DNA of 38,326 nt from Candidatus Syntropharchaeum sp. (lineage in GTDB: Archaea; Halobacteriota; Syntropharchaeia; Syntropharchaeales; Syntropharchaeaceae). The translations under genes were made by a program, and so were the position numbers. The notes under the pieces were generated by a model. It made no database searches. It was not told where the DNA came from and saw only the letters and a list, made by a program, of their open reading frames with translations. The stretch is from assembly GCA_026134025.1 (NCBI GenBank), contig JAOQII010000014.1, forward strand, positions 1-38,326, read 5' to 3'. Shown one piece after another: positions 1,972 through 8,207 of the stretch. Each line of letters begins with the position of its first letter. The stretch's first letter is position 1.

Positions 1972-2814
1972 ATGACCAAACAGCGAATCCACACTACCAT
2001 CGATGCAGAGGCATACCACATCCTTCAGAAGTATGAGGAGCAGTGGGGTGGGAAAAATGCCGTCCTTGAGGCTGCCCTGAAGGGACTTGATCAGGGACAT
2101 AAAGCACAGCTTGATATAAAAATTTATGAGAAGATCGGGCGCAAGAGCACAGGCATACCAACACTCGACCAGATGATAGAGGGTGGAATCCCAAAAAATT
2201 TTGTTGTTATCGTGACCGGAACTCCCGGGACAGGCAAGACGACTTTTGGGATGCAATTTCTCGTTGAAGGGATAAAAAATGGTGAGCGGGGCATCTTTTT
2301 CTCCTTTGAAGAGGATTCTGAGCAACTTGCAAATCACTGCCTCCGCTTCGGGTGGAACCTGCGAGAATACGCAGAGAAAGGGCAGCTTCTGATATACGGG
2401 TTATCGATGATCACGGTGAACGATGTGATCGAAGTAGTGCAAGATTATAAGCCATCAAGAATCGTGATAGACTCGATCAACCTCTTAACAGACTTTGGTT
2501 CATCGAATAAACTGAGGGAAAACTCGATGCTGAGAAATCTCTTAAAGCTTCTGAAACGTGAACGTGTCACGACAATCATCACAACCGAGAAGACACATGG
2601 ACTCGAGAAGAAAGCCTTCGATCAGTTCGATTTTATGGGGGATGGTCTGATCTTCCTCGATCGCACAACGGTCAATGATATGGATGTTTTTCTTATCAAA
2701 GTTCAGAAGATGAGGGGCACGAAGATCAACGGGCAGACGAAGGTCTTTGAGATGACAGATCAGGGAATCGTTGTATCTCTCGATTTCAGCCCAGGAATCT
2801 TTGATATTAAGTGA
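1972..2814 (+). CDS. KaiC-like RecA-superfamily ATPase with N-terminal RHH-like segment
   Basis: A 280-residue single-domain KaiC/RadA-like ATPase. Residues about 83-90 are the Walker A loop (GTPGTGKT). An FSFEED motif with paired glutamates follows near residue 111, and a Walker B strand (RIVIDS) near residue 164. The domain opens with the typical STGIPTLDQMIEGGIP. The first 45 residues (TKQRIHTTIDAEAYHILQKY and a helix) do not belong to the ATPase and resemble a ribbon-helix-helix DNA-binding unit. Archaeal single KaiC-domain proteins often act in signalling, but this one's partner is unknown. A GGGGA ribosome site precedes the ATG and an AT-rich promoter region lies upstream. Its 3' end overlaps argH on the other strand by 8 bases. 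Confidence 0.85.
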   Translation: MTKQRIHTTIDAEAYHILQKYEEQWGGKNAVLEAALKGLDQGHKAQLDIKIYEKIGRKSTGIPTLDQMIEGGIPKNFVVIVTGTPGTGKTTFGMQFLVEGIKNGERGIFFSFEEDSEQLANHCLRFGWNLREYAEKGQLLIYGLSMITVNDVIEVVQDYKPSRIVIDSINLLTDFGSSNKLRENSMLRNLLKLLKRERVTTIITTEKTHGLEKKAFDQFDFMGDGLIFLDRTTVNDMDVFLIKVQKMRGTKINGQTKVFEMTDQGIVVSLDFSPGIFDIK

Positions 2815-4141
2815 GGGATAACGCTTTCTTGCGCTTATCTATCATTCTTCTGACTTCACGCGGGGATGGTCCACCTGTAACCTTCCTTCGATCGACGCTC
2901 AACGCAGGATCGAGAGCTTCTTTCAACGTTGCTTCATCGAGTTCTTCAATTCTTCTCCCCTCGCTAATAACCTCTCCAACGATTTTATGAGCGGTCCTGA
3001 ACGGAATTCCACACTCTCTAACGAGCGTGTCTGCAAGATCAGTCGCCATTAGATCACCAAGATCAAGTTTCGCTCGCATCGACTCAGATTTTACCCGCAT
3101 ACCTCCGATCATCTTCGTCATTCCACGAAGCGAGCTTTTTGTTATCGTTACTGCACTAAGGAGGTGTGGTGTAAGTTCCTGAAGGTCTCGATTGTAGCTC
3201 ATCGGCATAGCTTTCATGATCGTTAACACTGCTGTAAGATCGCCATAAACCGTGCCGGTCTTTGCCCTGATAAGCTCTGCAAGGTCTGGATTCTTTTTTT
3301 GAGGCATTATTGAACTTGTGCTCGTGACAGCATCGTCAAGTTCGATCATATCAAACCCCTGGCTACTCCAGAGTATTAACTCCTCAGCGAGCCTTGATAG
3401 GTGCATCATTATAATGGAAAATACCGATATTGCTTCTATCAGAAAATCTCTCGCAGAAACAGCATCCATCGAGTTCTCAACAAGCCCCTCGAACCCTAAA
3501 AGCTCCATAGTCCTATCACGATCGATAGGGAAACTTGTAGATGCAAAAGCGGCAGCGCCCAGGGGTGAAAGGTTTGTGCGGTGGTAGAGTGCATCGAGCC
3601 GCTCAAGGTCACGGCTGAGCGCATCAAAATGGGCGAGGAGGTGGTGTGCAAGGGTTGTTGGCTGGGCAAACTGGAGGTGTGTGAAGCCTGGCATCAGTGT
3701 CTCCACATTCTCCTCAGCCCGTTTAAGAATCGTTCCTCTTAAATCGTTGAGATAATCGATTAACTTAAGTTCCTCCCTTCTAAGTGCGATCCTGATGCAC
3801 GTTGCAACCTCATCATTTCGAGATCTTGCTGTATGCATCCGCCCACCAGCCTCCTCACCGATAAGCTCAATCAGCTTCGATTCCACACACGCGTGGATAT
3901 CCTCATAAGCTTCAAGCTCCAGAATCTCAATCCCGCCCTCTTCAATCTGTTTTAACCCATCGAGGATTATAGATGCTTCCTTCTCGCTTATAATCTTATT
4001 TTCAAGGAGCATCCTGGTATGAGCTTTATCTACCAGGAGATCGGCATCAAATATCCATCGATCAGCATCCAGAGATTGGAGAAACTCAAGGCTTGATTCA
4101 TCAATCTGCTTTTTTAGTCTTCCACGACGGATGATATCCAT
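2807..4141 (-). CDS. argH: Argininosuccinate lyase
   Basis: Cleaves argininosuccinate to arginine and fumarate, the last step of arginine synthesis, in the cytoplasm. The 444 residues match full length. The fumarase/aspartase superfamily signature is present (SSIMPQKKNPD near residue 280), as are the HTARSRNDEV segment and the TSFPIDRD region. It is the last gene of the run mcrB-mcrG-Cys-rich protein-argH, 34 bases after the Cys-rich gene. No clear ribosome site is seen before the ATG, but the upstream gap is AT-rich and may carry a second promoter. Placing a housekeeping arginine gene behind mcr genes probably reflects chance linkage. Confidence 0.95.
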   Translation of the reverse strand: MDIIRRGRLKKQIDESSLEFLQSLDADRWIFDADLLVDKAHTRMLLENKIISEKEASIILDGLKQIEEGGIEILELEAYEDIHACVESKLIELIGEEAGGRMHTARSRNDEVATCIRIALRREELKLIDYLNDLRGTILKRAEENVETLMPGFTHLQFAQPTTLAHHLLAHFDALSRDLERLDALYHRTNLSPLGAAAFASTSFPIDRDRTMELLGFEGLVENSMDAVSARDFLIEAISVFSIIMMHLSRLAEELILWSSQGFDMIELDDAVTSTSSIMPQKKNPDLAELIRAKTGTVYGDLTAVLTIMKAMPMSYNRDLQELTPHLLSAVTITKSSLRGMTKMIGGMRVKSESMRAKLDLGDLMATDLADTLVRECGIPFRTAHKIVGEVISEGRRIEELDEATLKEALDPALSVDRRKVTGGPSPREVRRMIDKRKKALSLT

Positions 4142-4175
4142 ATAATTAAAAAAAGTTTGGAGAGGAGCGTAAATA

Positions 4176-4556
4176 TTACTCCTCTATCGTAAGCGGGAAT
4201 CCACTATCCTTGTAGATCTCCTCGAGCTTTGCCTTCTTCTCATCATTTGGTATGTAGTCCACACAGAGAAGGATATCCTCGCCCATTGTTGCGGTCTTTG
4301 CGCAGGTATAGGACGTCCCAAACTCGCCCTTCGTCTCGACGAAGAACTTGCAATCCTCGCACCTGAATATTGGCTGAAAAGCCTCACAGGTTCGGTCGAG
4401 CGGATCAGGTATATCGATCTTCATCTTGCCCCGAGTCTGTTTGAAGATTCGATCACACCCATTCTCAACGCTGTAATAATCACAGATAAGACAGGGACGT
4501 TTATTCTCCTCAAGGTACAGCTTCAGGGGGTAGACATCACCAAGTTTTATAGGCAT
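4176..4556 (-). CDS. Eight-cysteine small protein co-transcribed with mcrBG
   Basis: A 126-residue soluble, acidic protein with eight cysteines at residues 22, 25, 34, 57, 66, 69, 85 and 98. They form two similar modules, CxxC-x8-C-x22-C and CxxC-x15-C-x12-C, each beginning with CxxC followed by an aromatic pair (CDYY, CKFF). This suggests an internal duplication binding two metal centres, iron-sulfur or zinc. It starts 38 bases after mcrG behind a good GGAG ribosome site, so it is almost certainly co-translated with mcrBG. It is neither McrC nor McrD. From memory, the cysteine layout and the C-x2-C-K-x-F motif resemble HiPIP-like small subunits of glycyl-radical enzymes (HpdC, BssB); I could not align them. 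Function is unknown; an accessory, electron-transfer or assembly role for the Mcr-type enzyme is a guess. Confidence 0.85.
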   Translation of the reverse strand: MPIKLGDVYPLKLYLEENKRPCLICDYYSVENGCDRIFKQTRGKMKIDIPDPLDRTCEAFQPIFRCEDCKFFVETKGEFGTSYTCAKTATMGEDILLCVDYIPNDEKKAKLEEIYKDSGFPLTIEE

Positions 4557-4594
4557 TACAAAGGCTCCTAAAATATAAAAAGGTAGAAAAATAT

Positions 4595-5407
4595 CTACCT
4601 TGGGCAGTCAATGATCTCGGTCAGTTCTGGGTTGAACCCACCGGTGATCCTTCCTCTGCTGTACCTCGCAAGGACTGTCAGGATCTCTGTACGGGACTTG
4701 TACGCTGCAACATCCCAACGATATGTACAGTCGTGTCCTCTTGCTTCTCGCTCAGTAAGTGGTCGCCCGATTGGAATTGGATTGTCAAGAACCTCTGCGT
4801 GCATGTTCTTGATATACTCAACCTCACCTGTATCCTTGTTGAGCTTGTATCGACGCCTGGCATCGAACATCAATCCATCCTCATCAAGCCTCAACGAGTG
4901 GCCGTGCACTGTGATACCTCGAATCGCATTCCTTGCAGGGTCATAGACCTCGGTCTCCAGCAACCACTTCGCCGCACCTTCGATATCACGCTCACGCTGC
5001 TCGAGTAGCTGCCGGCCTGAGTAGACCATCACATCACACCCTCTCAGCCTCGACATGTACAGTCGGGGTCTGAGCCATGGGGCCATCGGCGGGTAGAAGA
5101 TCGAATCTGCGAACTGGATATACCTGATTCGATCACCAGCTCTTGCGCCAGGGGTCGGCTCGACAATACTCTTCACAGGATCATACTTTTCTACAAGCTC
5201 ATCCAAAGGAGGGTGAACACTCACATAAGACTCACCCTTAAATCTGTGGCCTAAGAGGAGTACGATGTTATCATCAGGGATCGACCTGAACTTCGCAAGT
5301 TTCTTCGTTGGATCTGTCGCTTTTCTCCTCCTGTCGGATACCTTGTCAGCACCAGGATACACCTGTGGCTTATACTTTGCTTTCTTTGCCCTTCTTGGTC
5401 TCGCCAT
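4595..5407 (-). CDS. mcrG: Methyl/alkyl-coenzyme M reductase subunit gamma
   Basis: Gamma subunit of the F430-containing reductase that makes or activates methane, or activates larger alkanes in divergent forms. The protein is 270 residues, slightly longer than usual. Family features are the N-terminal YKPQVYPG, the LLGHRFKGESYVSVHPPLDE stretch near residue 50, and the RLRGCDVMVYSGRQLLE region. Its start codon lies directly after the mcrB stop, so the two are translationally coupled. Methanogen operons usually run mcrBDCGA; here mcrD and mcrC are missing and no mcrA follows. The extra basic N-terminus and altered spacing suggest a divergent alkyl-CoM reductase type; which alkane it acts on cannot be told from this subunit. 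Confidence 0.95.
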   Translation of the reverse strand: MARPRRAKKAKYKPQVYPGADKVSDRRRKATDPTKKLAKFRSIPDDNIVLLLGHRFKGESYVSVHPPLDELVEKYDPVKSIVEPTPGARAGDRIRYIQFADSIFYPPMAPWLRPRLYMSRLRGCDVMVYSGRQLLEQRERDIEGAAKWLLETEVYDPARNAIRGITVHGHSLRLDEDGLMFDARRRYKLNKDTGEVEYIKNMHAEVLDNPIPIGRPLTEREARGHDCTYRWDVAAYKSRTEILTVLARYSRGRITGGFNPELTEIIDCPR

Positions 5408-6790
5408 TTAGATCTCCCCCTTGACCGACTCTGCAGCCTCTGCAACCTTCTCAAGTGGGTTCTGGAAGATTGGGAGGTTGTCTGCGAGCGTGTAGTAGAG
5501 CCCTGATGTGACACTCGGACGGAATATCTGAGAACCCGCATCCAGACACATACCTGCAACGACGCACGGGGTCAAGAAGCCTGAGGTGTGTCTCACAATC
5601 ACATGATCCATCGTGAACGCACCGGGTCCTGCACCACCATAGAGTCCATGTGTGTAGAAACCAAATCCAAGCCCGGTTCCCATAACCCTTCCTGCATCCG
5701 GGTCTGGTAAACCACCGCCCTCAAATGCGATGTAGTCGTTCCATGAACCCAGAACCGCACTTGTATTCTGTGCAGCCCTCATCGCACCGCAGTTGACGAT
5801 AACAGCACATAAAAGTGTTGCAACACCATAAGCGTTCCACATCGCGTAGTCCTTCAGCCCATATAGCTTGTAACCGGATGGCTGGACAAACGGATAACGG
5901 TTGGGTGGCTCTTCAATAACCCCATTCGCCAGCGCTCGTTCCATCAGTGTGAGAACGACATCATAAGCAGTTCCCTTCGCGTTTTCCTTCAGCATACTGA
6001 GCACAAAATTATTGGCATTGAAGCCCTGATATGCCGATCCAAGCAGCTGTGCTCGCTCATACCATCCAACAGAGTTGCCCATCTCGGCCTGGGCACCCTG
6101 CTCGAAGATCGTTGCCAATGCAACAGCCTCCAACGTTCTGTTGTTTCCGAGCGCAACGACGTGATTGATCATGAATGACTTAAACCCTGTCCCAAGACCT
6201 TCAAGGATTGAGGGAACTTTCATGAGGGTTGATACCGGATTACCCGAGTTTGGTCCTACATACTGCGGATATCTCCCATGCAGGCAGTTCTTCAGCATTC
6301 CCATCCTGTATGGACGATCAAGTGGGTTGTCAATTCCGTATTTCTTTGCGATTATCTGCGCAAGTGCAACACTCACTCGCGTGAATGCAGGTGAGTAATC
6401 TGCAGATCGCCTGAGAAGTTCTTCTGAAAGCTGAACCACAAGGAGTGATCCACCTTCAAGTTCGATGATGTTTGTATCGTCCCCTTCTTTGATCTGGAGC
6501 AGCTTTTTAAGTTCTTCTGCGATCTCCTCTGAGTCTTCAACAAGGTCGAGATCAAGGCCATACCATGGCATCTTTATCTCATCCTGGCCGACCGTTGAAG
6601 TCCAGCCGGTACGACCGTTCCTCAACATCTCCTCCAGCTTGCCGAGATCTACGATTCCTGTCCGCTTCAGCGTCATATACATCTCAGCCATGTAGGGGTT
6701 CCTGTATGGATGAAGCGCCTCGATAGGGATATTTTCTGCGAGAACTTTTCCCTCATCATTATACAGGTCAATTTTATCTTCATATTTCAT
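5408..6790 (-). CDS. mcrB: Methyl/alkyl-coenzyme M reductase subunit beta
   Basis: Beta subunit of the same enzyme, 460 residues, near the usual 430-450. It begins with the typical KYEDKIDLYNDEG and contains the conserved glycine-rich active-site segment (GRVMGTGLGF, FYTHGLYGGAGPG). The Phe and Tyr that in M. marburgensis line the substrate channel (Phe361, Tyr367 by motif) appear kept. However, a DPDAG segment replaces the common FFG-type sequence just before GRVMG, which points to a divergent clade. The ATG at 6790 is preferred over a TTG at 6805 because GGAGGAG sits directly upstream of it and the family starts there. A strong TATA box lies about 50 bases upstream. Confidence 0.95.
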   Translation of the reverse strand: MKYEDKIDLYNDEGKVLAENIPIEALHPYRNPYMAEMYMTLKRTGIVDLGKLEEMLRNGRTGWTSTVGQDEIKMPWYGLDLDLVEDSEEIAEELKKLLQIKEGDDTNIIELEGGSLLVVQLSEELLRRSADYSPAFTRVSVALAQIIAKKYGIDNPLDRPYRMGMLKNCLHGRYPQYVGPNSGNPVSTLMKVPSILEGLGTGFKSFMINHVVALGNNRTLEAVALATIFEQGAQAEMGNSVGWYERAQLLGSAYQGFNANNFVLSMLKENAKGTAYDVVLTLMERALANGVIEEPPNRYPFVQPSGYKLYGLKDYAMWNAYGVATLLCAVIVNCGAMRAAQNTSAVLGSWNDYIAFEGGGLPDPDAGRVMGTGLGFGFYTHGLYGGAGPGAFTMDHVIVRHTSGFLTPCVVAGMCLDAGSQIFRPSVTSGLYYTLADNLPIFQNPLEKVAEAAESVKGEI

Positions 6791-6837
6791 AGAAATCTCC
6801 TCCAAGTTTTGATTTCAATGTAGGTATAAGCTCATAG

Positions 6838-6845
6838 TATATAAA
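6838..6845 (-). promoter_or_regulatory. TATA box of the mcrBG operon
   Basis: A perfect archaeal TATA element (TTTATATA on the minus strand) lies about 50 bases before the mcrB ATG, predicting transcription start near 6816 and a leader of about 26 bases containing the GGAGGAG ribosome site. The gap back to the wHTH gene is about 105 bases and could hold an operator, but no obvious palindrome was seen. Confidence 0.6.
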
Positions 6846-6910: not shown

Positions 6911-7696
6911 TCACCTCTTTATATCGACAAACTCATACCCGATCGCATCCTCACCCAACCGCTTGAGAAGCGACGGAAGTTCACTCTCCACACAGACGAT
7001 TACAGGAGATATACCCCTTCGAGCAGCCTCCACAACCACCGACTTGACCCCATAGTTGATCTGTGACGTTACATCGATCTCGCTGAGTGCAACAAATGCC
7101 TCGATCCCAATTGCACAGACGATATCCGCTCCCTCTACAGCTTTTCTCAGTGCATCAGATGATATACATTTTGAGCCGCCATCCTGCACCTGTGGGATCG
7201 GGCAGATCGTAACTTTACCCACCTCAAGCGATATTATTCCGCTTATATCCGAGATGCCAACATCCTTTCCCGCTTTTGCACTTGTAACTACAGTGGCATG
7301 TGCAAAACCCTCTCTCTCACCTTTCGAGGCGTGAAGGATGCCATCTTCCATGAAGAGCGAGACCTGATCCCCCTCTCTGAGATCCTCATCTGCCACCGCT
7401 GCCCAGACAGAAATATTCGTTACGATATTATTGATATGATCGAGATATTCCTCCATCTCCTTCCCAACAGCGAGTACAAAGTTCACACCTTCTCTTGTGA
7501 CAACGTACATCTTCTTTCCATCAGTATGAATCAACCCTTCTTCCACCATCTCCTTGACATACTCAGAGACTGCCTGGGGTGTGATATCCATCTTCGCTGC
7601 GATATCTTTCTGGCGGATCGTGGGCTGATGTTCCGCCACTTCTACCAGAATCTGGAATTTACTGGATACTTTCTTACTTTTTAATGCCTGTATCAT
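6911..7696 (-). CDS. Winged-helix transcriptional regulator with a large C-terminal sensor-like domain
   Basis: A 261-residue protein. Residues 1-80 form a winged helix of MarR/IclR style (RQKDIAAKMDITPQAVSEYV as recognition helix, then a TDGKKMYVVT wing). Residues about 95-261 form an alpha/beta domain with Gly/Ala-rich strands (IVCAIGIEAFVALSE, ISPVIVCVE) that looks like a ligand-binding or Rossmann-like unit. It starts one base after the stop of the ArsR-like gene and ends about 120 bases before mcrB, same strand. The family seems widespread in euryarchaeal methanogens, but I do not know a characterised member. The position makes it a natural candidate regulator of mcrBG, an inference from context only. 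Confidence 0.8.
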   Translation of the reverse strand: MIQALKSKKVSSKFQILVEVAEHQPTIRQKDIAAKMDITPQAVSEYVKEMVEEGLIHTDGKKMYVVTREGVNFVLAVGKEMEEYLDHINNIVTNISVWAAVADEDLREGDQVSLFMEDGILHASKGEREGFAHATVVTSAKAGKDVGISDISGIISLEVGKVTICPIPQVQDGGSKCISSDALRKAVEGADIVCAIGIEAFVALSEIDVTSQINYGVKSVVVEAARRGISPVIVCVESELPSLLKRLGEDAIGYEFVDIKR

Positions 7697-7697
7697 C

Positions 7698-8207
7698 TCA
7701 ACCCCCTGATATTATTTCTATTCTCTGTCCTTTCAGTAAAAGTTTTTTTGATCGCTTTACGATGGCTTTCAAAAGTATGGGAGGCACATCTTCTGAAATA
7801 GAAATGTTACTTATCGAGTCTTTTCCACTATTTATGCATGAGATTATATTATCCTCTATCGACCCGAACGCTTCTTCATCGATGAATGAGATCGATATGA
7901 TATCACCAAGTTCCTCCATCTCACACTGGAAATTGAGCCTGACTCTGGAATAAGAGGTAGCATACTCAACCTCAGGAGTCGCTCCAGCCTCAGGGATTCT
8001 CCATTTACTCTCCAGCAATCCGCTCTCTCGCAGAACATCAAGACTCTCGCCGATCTCTTCAGATTTAAGCTTCGCTTTTAGTTCTTCCTCTGTGCACCAC
8101 TTGGATGAGAGAAGATCGAATACCTGTTTATGTTTAGTGGATGTAAATATCTGGAGGAGCGGAACGAGATCTGGAAGATCATTGATGATCCTGACACGTT
8201 TTGCCAT
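7698..8207 (-). CDS. ArsR-like winged-helix regulator
   Basis: A 169-residue protein with an N-terminal helix-turn-helix (LLQIFTSTKHKQVFDLLSSK, then a CTEEEL recognition region and an ESGLLESKWR wing) and a C-terminal alpha/beta part ending in a Lys/Arg-rich stretch. It matches archaeal ArsR-related regulators in layout. It precedes and nearly touches the second wHTH gene, so the two form a regulator pair ahead of mcrBG. A TATA-like element about 26-36 bases upstream gives a predicted start almost at the ATG, so the message is nearly leaderless. Ligand and targets are unknown. Confidence 0.75.
   Translation of the reverse strand: MAKRVRIINDLPDLVPLLQIFTSTKHKQVFDLLSSKWCTEEELKAKLKSEEIGESLDVLRESGLLESKWRIPEAGATPEVEYATSYSRVRLNFQCEMEELGDIISISFIDEEAFGSIEDNIISCINSGKDSISNISISEDVPPILLKAIVKRSKKLLLKGQRIEIISGG

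Follow-up and report, generated by a model that had tools for sequence, protein, structure and literature searches.

When butane and petroleum alkanes are oxidised anaerobically, the first step is that of multicarbon alkyl-CoM reductases (ACRs). A split ACR set has been reported in Ca. Syntrophoarchaeum butanivorans and in Ca. Alkanophaga (PMC9081873, PMC10322722), and in Alkanophaga the split type is the most strongly expressed of the ACR sets (PMC10322722). For MCR, the proteins McrC, Mmp7, Mmp17, Mmp3 and A2 have been purified as an activation complex, in which three complex iron-sulfur clusters lead to F430; the authors of that work considered it possible that activation needs further factors (PMC12176620). 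Small iron-sulfur proteins are also found with enzymes of another class: HpdC is the partner of a glycyl radical enzyme, and the gamma subunits BssC (TutF) and MasC are accessory to hydrocarbon activation by benzylsuccinate and 1-methylalkylsuccinate synthases, respectively.

The stretch of DNA that we analysed, 38,326 nucleotides from a Candidatus Syntropharchaeum species (the window), carries on its minus strand the beta and gamma genes of such a split multicarbon ACR. The acrG gene (an mcrG homolog, 4595..5407) matches PF02240 and TIGR03259. The acrB gene (an mcrB homolog, 5408..6805) matches PF02241/PF02783 and, below its curated cut-off, TIGR03257. Judged by these matches, both are genuine MCR beta and gamma homologs. 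For acrB, the listed start is a TTG at 6805, but the ATG at 6790, which is preceded by a GGAGG site, is the likelier one, and a putative archaeal TATA-like box, TTTATATA, can be read upstream of the gene (6838..6845, minus strand). Directly upstream of acrB and on the same strand lie two genes that look like transcription regulators (6911-7696 and 7698-8207, minus), a winged helix protein with DUF7839 and a PF09824 ArsR protein. Both mcrG and mcrA are present four times in the source genome (G000, 1.76 Mb). One acrA without adjacent acrBG belongs to a row X, Y, acrA, Z on contig 12, where X, Y and Z are three linked genes without an assigned family. With its split ACR set, the window probably comes from Ca. 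Syntrophoarchaeum butanivorans.

Immediately after acrG there is a small gene, which we call CysW (4176..4556). It reads on the minus strand from an ATG at 4556 to 4176 and encodes 126 amino acids with Cys at positions 22, 25, 34, 57, 66, 69, 85 and 98. The initial annotation had described eight Cys in the order CxxC-x8-C-x22-C and CxxC-x15-C-x12-C, and the translation bears this out exactly, to which the strand can now be added: the first module, C22-x2-C25-x8-C34-x22-C57, corresponds to 4386..4493 and the second, C66-x2-C69-x15-C85-x12-C98, to 4263..4361, both on the minus strand. The two modules had also been called similar, which holds for the layout of their Cys residues but not beyond it, since a profile comparison of one module with the other finds no likeness (1.3%). 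With the Cys frequency of the long ORFs of the window, eight Cys in 126 residues would be expected by chance with p of about 6e-5. Two pairs of close homologs, compared through their protein alignments, give dN 0.15 / dS 1.40 and dN 0.06 / dS 1.46; CysW is a real gene under purifying selection.

The distance to acrG, whose last base is 4595, is 38 bases, as had been noted, and the good ribosome site mentioned with it is an AGGAG eight bases before the ATG (4565..4569, minus strand). The same annotation had put the gene in the place where methanogens have mcrC/mcrD or mcrA. Only the latter is correct: the methanogen operon has the order mcrBDCGA, so that it is mcrA that follows mcrG, not mcrC or mcrD. 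A hairpin with a T-rich tail at the acrG stop (4580..4601, minus strand) might act as a partial terminator between the two genes and could lower CysW relative to AcrBG, although a consensus scan finds such sites, this one included, in a number near chance expectation. Around the CysW stop there is a 7-bp hairpin followed by a T7 tract (4148..4184, minus strand; predicted fold of -11 kcal/mol), and it is possible that the acrBG-CysW transcript ends here, before argH, which lies downstream on the same strand as CysW, acrB and acrG (2807..4141, minus).

How widely does CysW occur? Within the class, the CysW query matches G055 (57%), G003 (54%) and G057 (51%, at a contig edge), with no reliable match in the rest of the class in the same search. 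A profile search of 394 Halobacteriota genomes added G302, G231 and G239, together with a fragment at a contig edge in G002. A clear match is thus present in seven of the 394 genomes (G000, which has a single copy, G003, G055, G057, G231, G239 and G302), and none was found by this search in the others sampled in the phylum. The same seven genomes, and no others among the 394, carry an AcrG that is 70-76% identical to that of the window over the matched region; the genome of the eighth, fragmentary match (G002) carries an acrA of the same type. The sister species of the same genus (G001, 95% complete, with four other mcrG genes) has neither CysW nor a matching AcrG, and three genomes in which AcrG is 57-58% identical have no CysW by profile, nor beside acr where the contigs permit a view. 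A strict pattern scan outside Halobacteriota gave no further homolog, the same pattern having also missed G231 and G239; single-sequence scans of genome contigs and of viral contigs gave no match.

In all six full-length sequences the eight Cys are kept, in invariant columns, with gaps 2-8-22-8-2-(15 in the window, 20 elsewhere)-12. CysW divergence tracks that of AcrG and AcrB, also across classes (r 0.87-0.88, over 21 pairs that are not independent). CysW is restricted to one ACR clade and is inherited together with it. As to the hosts, G003 corresponds to Ca. Alkanophaga volatiphilum and G302 to the Archaeoglobales MAG B35_G2. Between G302 and Alkanophaga, AcrG is 95% and CysW 88% identical, and the G302 contig (L077, G302:C207) may be a mis-binned Alkanophaga contig or the result of a recent transfer. 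G231 and G239 are in the same class as G302 and are taken to be Archaeoglobi; we considered Methanoliparia for family f33 and rejected it, because f33 falls in the same class as that Archaeoglobales MAG. In size and completeness G239 resembles Ca. Polytropus marinifundus, the MCR operons of which were judged to be horizontally acquired (PMC6474303).

The initial annotation had proposed a coupling to mcr genes, and had named homologs scattered without such a link as evidence to the contrary. The survey found the opposite of scatter and supports the coupling strongly: the homologs all come from genomes that have an ACR of this type, and their neighbours are acr or MCR-activation genes. Those next to acrBG are from Syntrophoarchaeum, Alkanophaga and two genera of Archaeoglobi. 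All six CysW sequences with an informative context, that of the window included, are linked to mcr/acr, McrC, Mmp3/7/17 or A2. In the window CysW is directly 3' of acrG, while in G003 and G302 it is divergent from acrB. In G231 and G239 it is second in an X-CysW(-Y) run that is divergent from acrB-acrG-acrA-Z-Mmp3, the latter run extending in G239 to Mmp17 and Mmp7. In G055 the run is CfbC/NifH-like, McrC, chaperonin, CysW and component A2 (TIGR03269, E 4e-192), with CysW 13 bases before the A2 gene. Hence the gene order varies by lineage and the neighbours are constantly acr or MCR-activation genes. The most informative genome is G055: it carries acrBG of this ACR type in three copies, and one CysW was found, away from them, in a genome that is 64% complete, so that further copies may be missing; at two of its loci seen in extended context (L059, L060) X, Y and acrA stand in line with no CysW. 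This arrangement, with CysW beside McrC and A2 and not beside the acrBG copies, speaks for an activation or assembly factor that is shared.

Several other genes of these neighbourhoods deserve mention in their own right. Gene X (about 370-480 aa; for example L056:6833-7957, L076:7942-9057 and L060:2419-3723) has no Pfam or NCBIfam match and is found in 9 of the 394 genomes, mostly those with the CysW-type ACR; most genomes with X have a second, diverged copy, which in G239 (L094) adjoins a component A2 gene. Gene Y (about 120-180 aa; L056:7961-8506, L059:4183-4578, L060:5425-5814, L076:9464-9835) contains Cys and His, looks zinc-ribbon-like by eye and has no family match; it either follows CysW or stands between X and acrA. 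Gene Z (about 180-200 aa; L056:10434-11021, L053:5117-5710, L075:792-1331, L076:3078-3617) adjoins acrA or acrG. Its only PDB profile matches are two SCP2 lipid-carrier proteins (E 1.4-1.7), and it is conceivable that it binds lipid or alkane. The gene after CysW in each of the two Alkanophaga genomes matches the tetraether lipid synthase Tes (L053:8497-9963, L078:81-1544), the assignment being by profile for L053 and by near-identical sequence for L078. The sister species G001 has a different divergent acrBGA operon (L101:5340-14000), after which come small Cys-containing proteins without an assigned family and genes resembling those of A2 and of a chaperonin.

CysW belongs to no described family in Pfam, NCBIfam or PHROGs, and the models of McrC, McrD, Mmp3, Mmp7, Mmp17 and A2 do not match it. 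A likeness to the small subunits BssB and HpdC had been suggested, and this suggestion survives in part. NF033716 (HpdC) is indeed the best NCBIfam match of the query and it matches four of the seven members, weakly (E 0.03 or weaker); however, the score of the query is 14.7 bits (E 0.029) against a curated cut-off of 50, and no glycyl radical enzyme (PF02901) was detected in eight genomes, some of them incomplete, where positive controls were detected. The profile-profile comparison that had been recommended (hhalign) gives 29% probability with an HpdC profile made of two sequences, one of which is backed by its match to 2Y8N alone. Among shuffles with the Cys fixed, one of 300 scored as well against HpdC, and none of 300 full column shuffles did, these tests having been chosen partly after the match had been seen. 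The HpdC-like portion is the linker C57-x8-C66-x2-C69: C-x2-F-x-P-x3-C-x2-C-K-x-F is common to CysW and the HpdC chain of 2Y8N, and in the six-frame translation of the retrieved loci (492,375 residues) CysW is the only sequence with the pattern C..[FY].P...C..C.

Two AlphaFold2 runs with different lead sequences gave low-quality models (mean pLDDT 39 and 45). We also looked for a relation to solved structures by sequence and rejected it, because the matches (complex I subunit I, CzcP, SAH hydrolase) were at chance level; those to Hantavirus Gc, an ISH6 transposase and a kinase were weak, isolated and not common to the family. In our opinion the likeness to the HiPIP-like HpdC subunit is suggestive only. 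It is unlikely that multicarbon ACRs use a dedicated two-cluster iron-sulfur protein distantly related to these subunits; in that case one kind of cluster protein would have been recruited twice, by two classes of radical enzymes for anaerobic hydrocarbon and aryl chemistry that are not related to each other.

What, then, might CysW do? We propose, with about even confidence, that it is a dedicated accessory protein of a single alkyl-CoM reductase clade, the multicarbon ACRs in which acrA is often split from acrBG, and that it carries two [4Fe-4S] clusters and acts in trans in assembly or reductive activation. We infer its metal content, its partner contacts, its electron transfer and its action in trans as follows. 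Each four-Cys module would hold one [4Fe-4S] cluster; the protein would work in trans while the ACR is assembled or reductively activated, would bind either the enzyme that contains AcrBG or the complex of McrC, Mmp7, Mmp17, Mmp3 and A2, and would help low-potential electrons to get to F430, for the step from Ni(II) to Ni(I). Of the two roles offered by the initial annotation, an added cluster subunit and a dedicated redox or assembly factor, the second fits better, the role itself being putative.

That CysW is instead an iron-sulfur subunit present in stoichiometric amount in the ACR holoenzyme, which it would stabilise or whose active site it would keep from or allow to open, in the manner of the HiPIP-like small subunits of glycyl radical enzymes that act on alkanes or aryl compounds (HpdC, BssB, MASS beta), is possible but rather improbable in our view. 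The gene directly follows acrG, as that of a subunit might, which also counts against our proposal, and its restriction to the ACR clade would be expected of a subunit. The HpdC model being the best NCBIfam match and reaching four of seven members, and the C-x8-C-x2-C linker with its longer motif being common to both proteins, point the same way, and MASS has a HiPIP-like subunit that lacks sequence similarity to the Bss subunits (PMC12358834). However, the similarity to HpdC is under its significance cut-off, and two ACR operons of G055 seen in extended context have no CysW, while the sole copy found adjoins McrC and A2. Because one lineage has three ACR copies and one detected CysW away from them, we favour a trans-acting factor, probably an iron-sulfur one, over a stoichiometric subunit.

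A role without electron transfer is also conceivable. CysW could be an assembly chaperone with zinc or a mononuclear metal that holds AcrBG or apo-AcrA before F430 is inserted, perhaps in place of McrD. Its linkage to acrBG, to A2 and to the gene of a chaperonin would suit this role, and the MASS delta subunit, a CX2CXnCXnC protein, can bind a single Fe (PMC12358834). On the contrary, its CxxC + C + C layout differs from that of zinc ribbons, in which CxxC is paired with CxxC, and no profile puts CysW in a zinc-ribbon family, the placement that had been named as speaking against an iron-sulfur protein (the query and two homologs have no such Pfam match); we regard a chaperone of this kind as distinctly unlikely. 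It would be very hard to believe that CysW is a chance neighbour with no functional tie to ACR. The sample of genomes is finite, and CysW is known from no more than about five independent lineages, but across their varying gene orders it is always accompanied by acr or MCR-activation genes, and the co-occurrence with the ACR type is complete. Our own proposal of an accessory factor acting in trans has to face two further points: ACRs with a 57-58% AcrG, as well as ordinary MCRs, are presumably activated without CysW, because no CysW was found there, and by profile matching CysW is in no known activation-protein family.

We found no family model and no open-access paper, in main texts without supplements, that describes CysW. 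A figure of the Alkanophaga paper includes unannotated genes around acr (PMC10322722), thus CysW may have been seen but left undescribed. The kind of system is known, and CysW probably adds a new accessory component to it. Tied as it is to exactly one ACR clade, it is a concrete candidate for the suspected additional activation factor, and its gene is one to include when multicarbon ACRs are produced in a methanogen host.

Comparison with the known systems puts this in perspective. HpdC (NF033716; PDB 2Y8N/2YAJ) is, like CysW, small and built of two consecutive four-ligand modules, and the C-x8-C-x2-C linker is identical in both. The gaps inside the modules differ, being 2-8-22-8-2-15-12 in CysW and 2-12-16-8-2-13-17 in the 2Y8N chain, where the first ligand is presumably His in place of Cys. 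CysW has extra N- and C-terminal parts, and its partner would be a Ni-F430 enzyme, unlike the glycyl radical enzyme served by HpdC. BssC and MasC have the CX2CXnCXnC cluster motif in common with CysW but consist of one module only and show no match in hhalign (1.5%). Methanogen McrD and McrC resemble CysW in being encoded by small accessory genes of the mcr operon, whereas their models do not match it. The MCR activation proteins have no sequence similarity to CysW, and the [8Fe-9S-C]-like clusters of their complex have few Cys/His ligands, whereas in CysW the presence of four Cys in each of two sets points to cubanes. Nevertheless, McrC, Mmp7, Mmp17, Mmp3 and A2 are the proteins whose genes are neighbours of CysW in G055, G231 and G239, and the step that we propose for CysW, the reductive activation of F430, is theirs.
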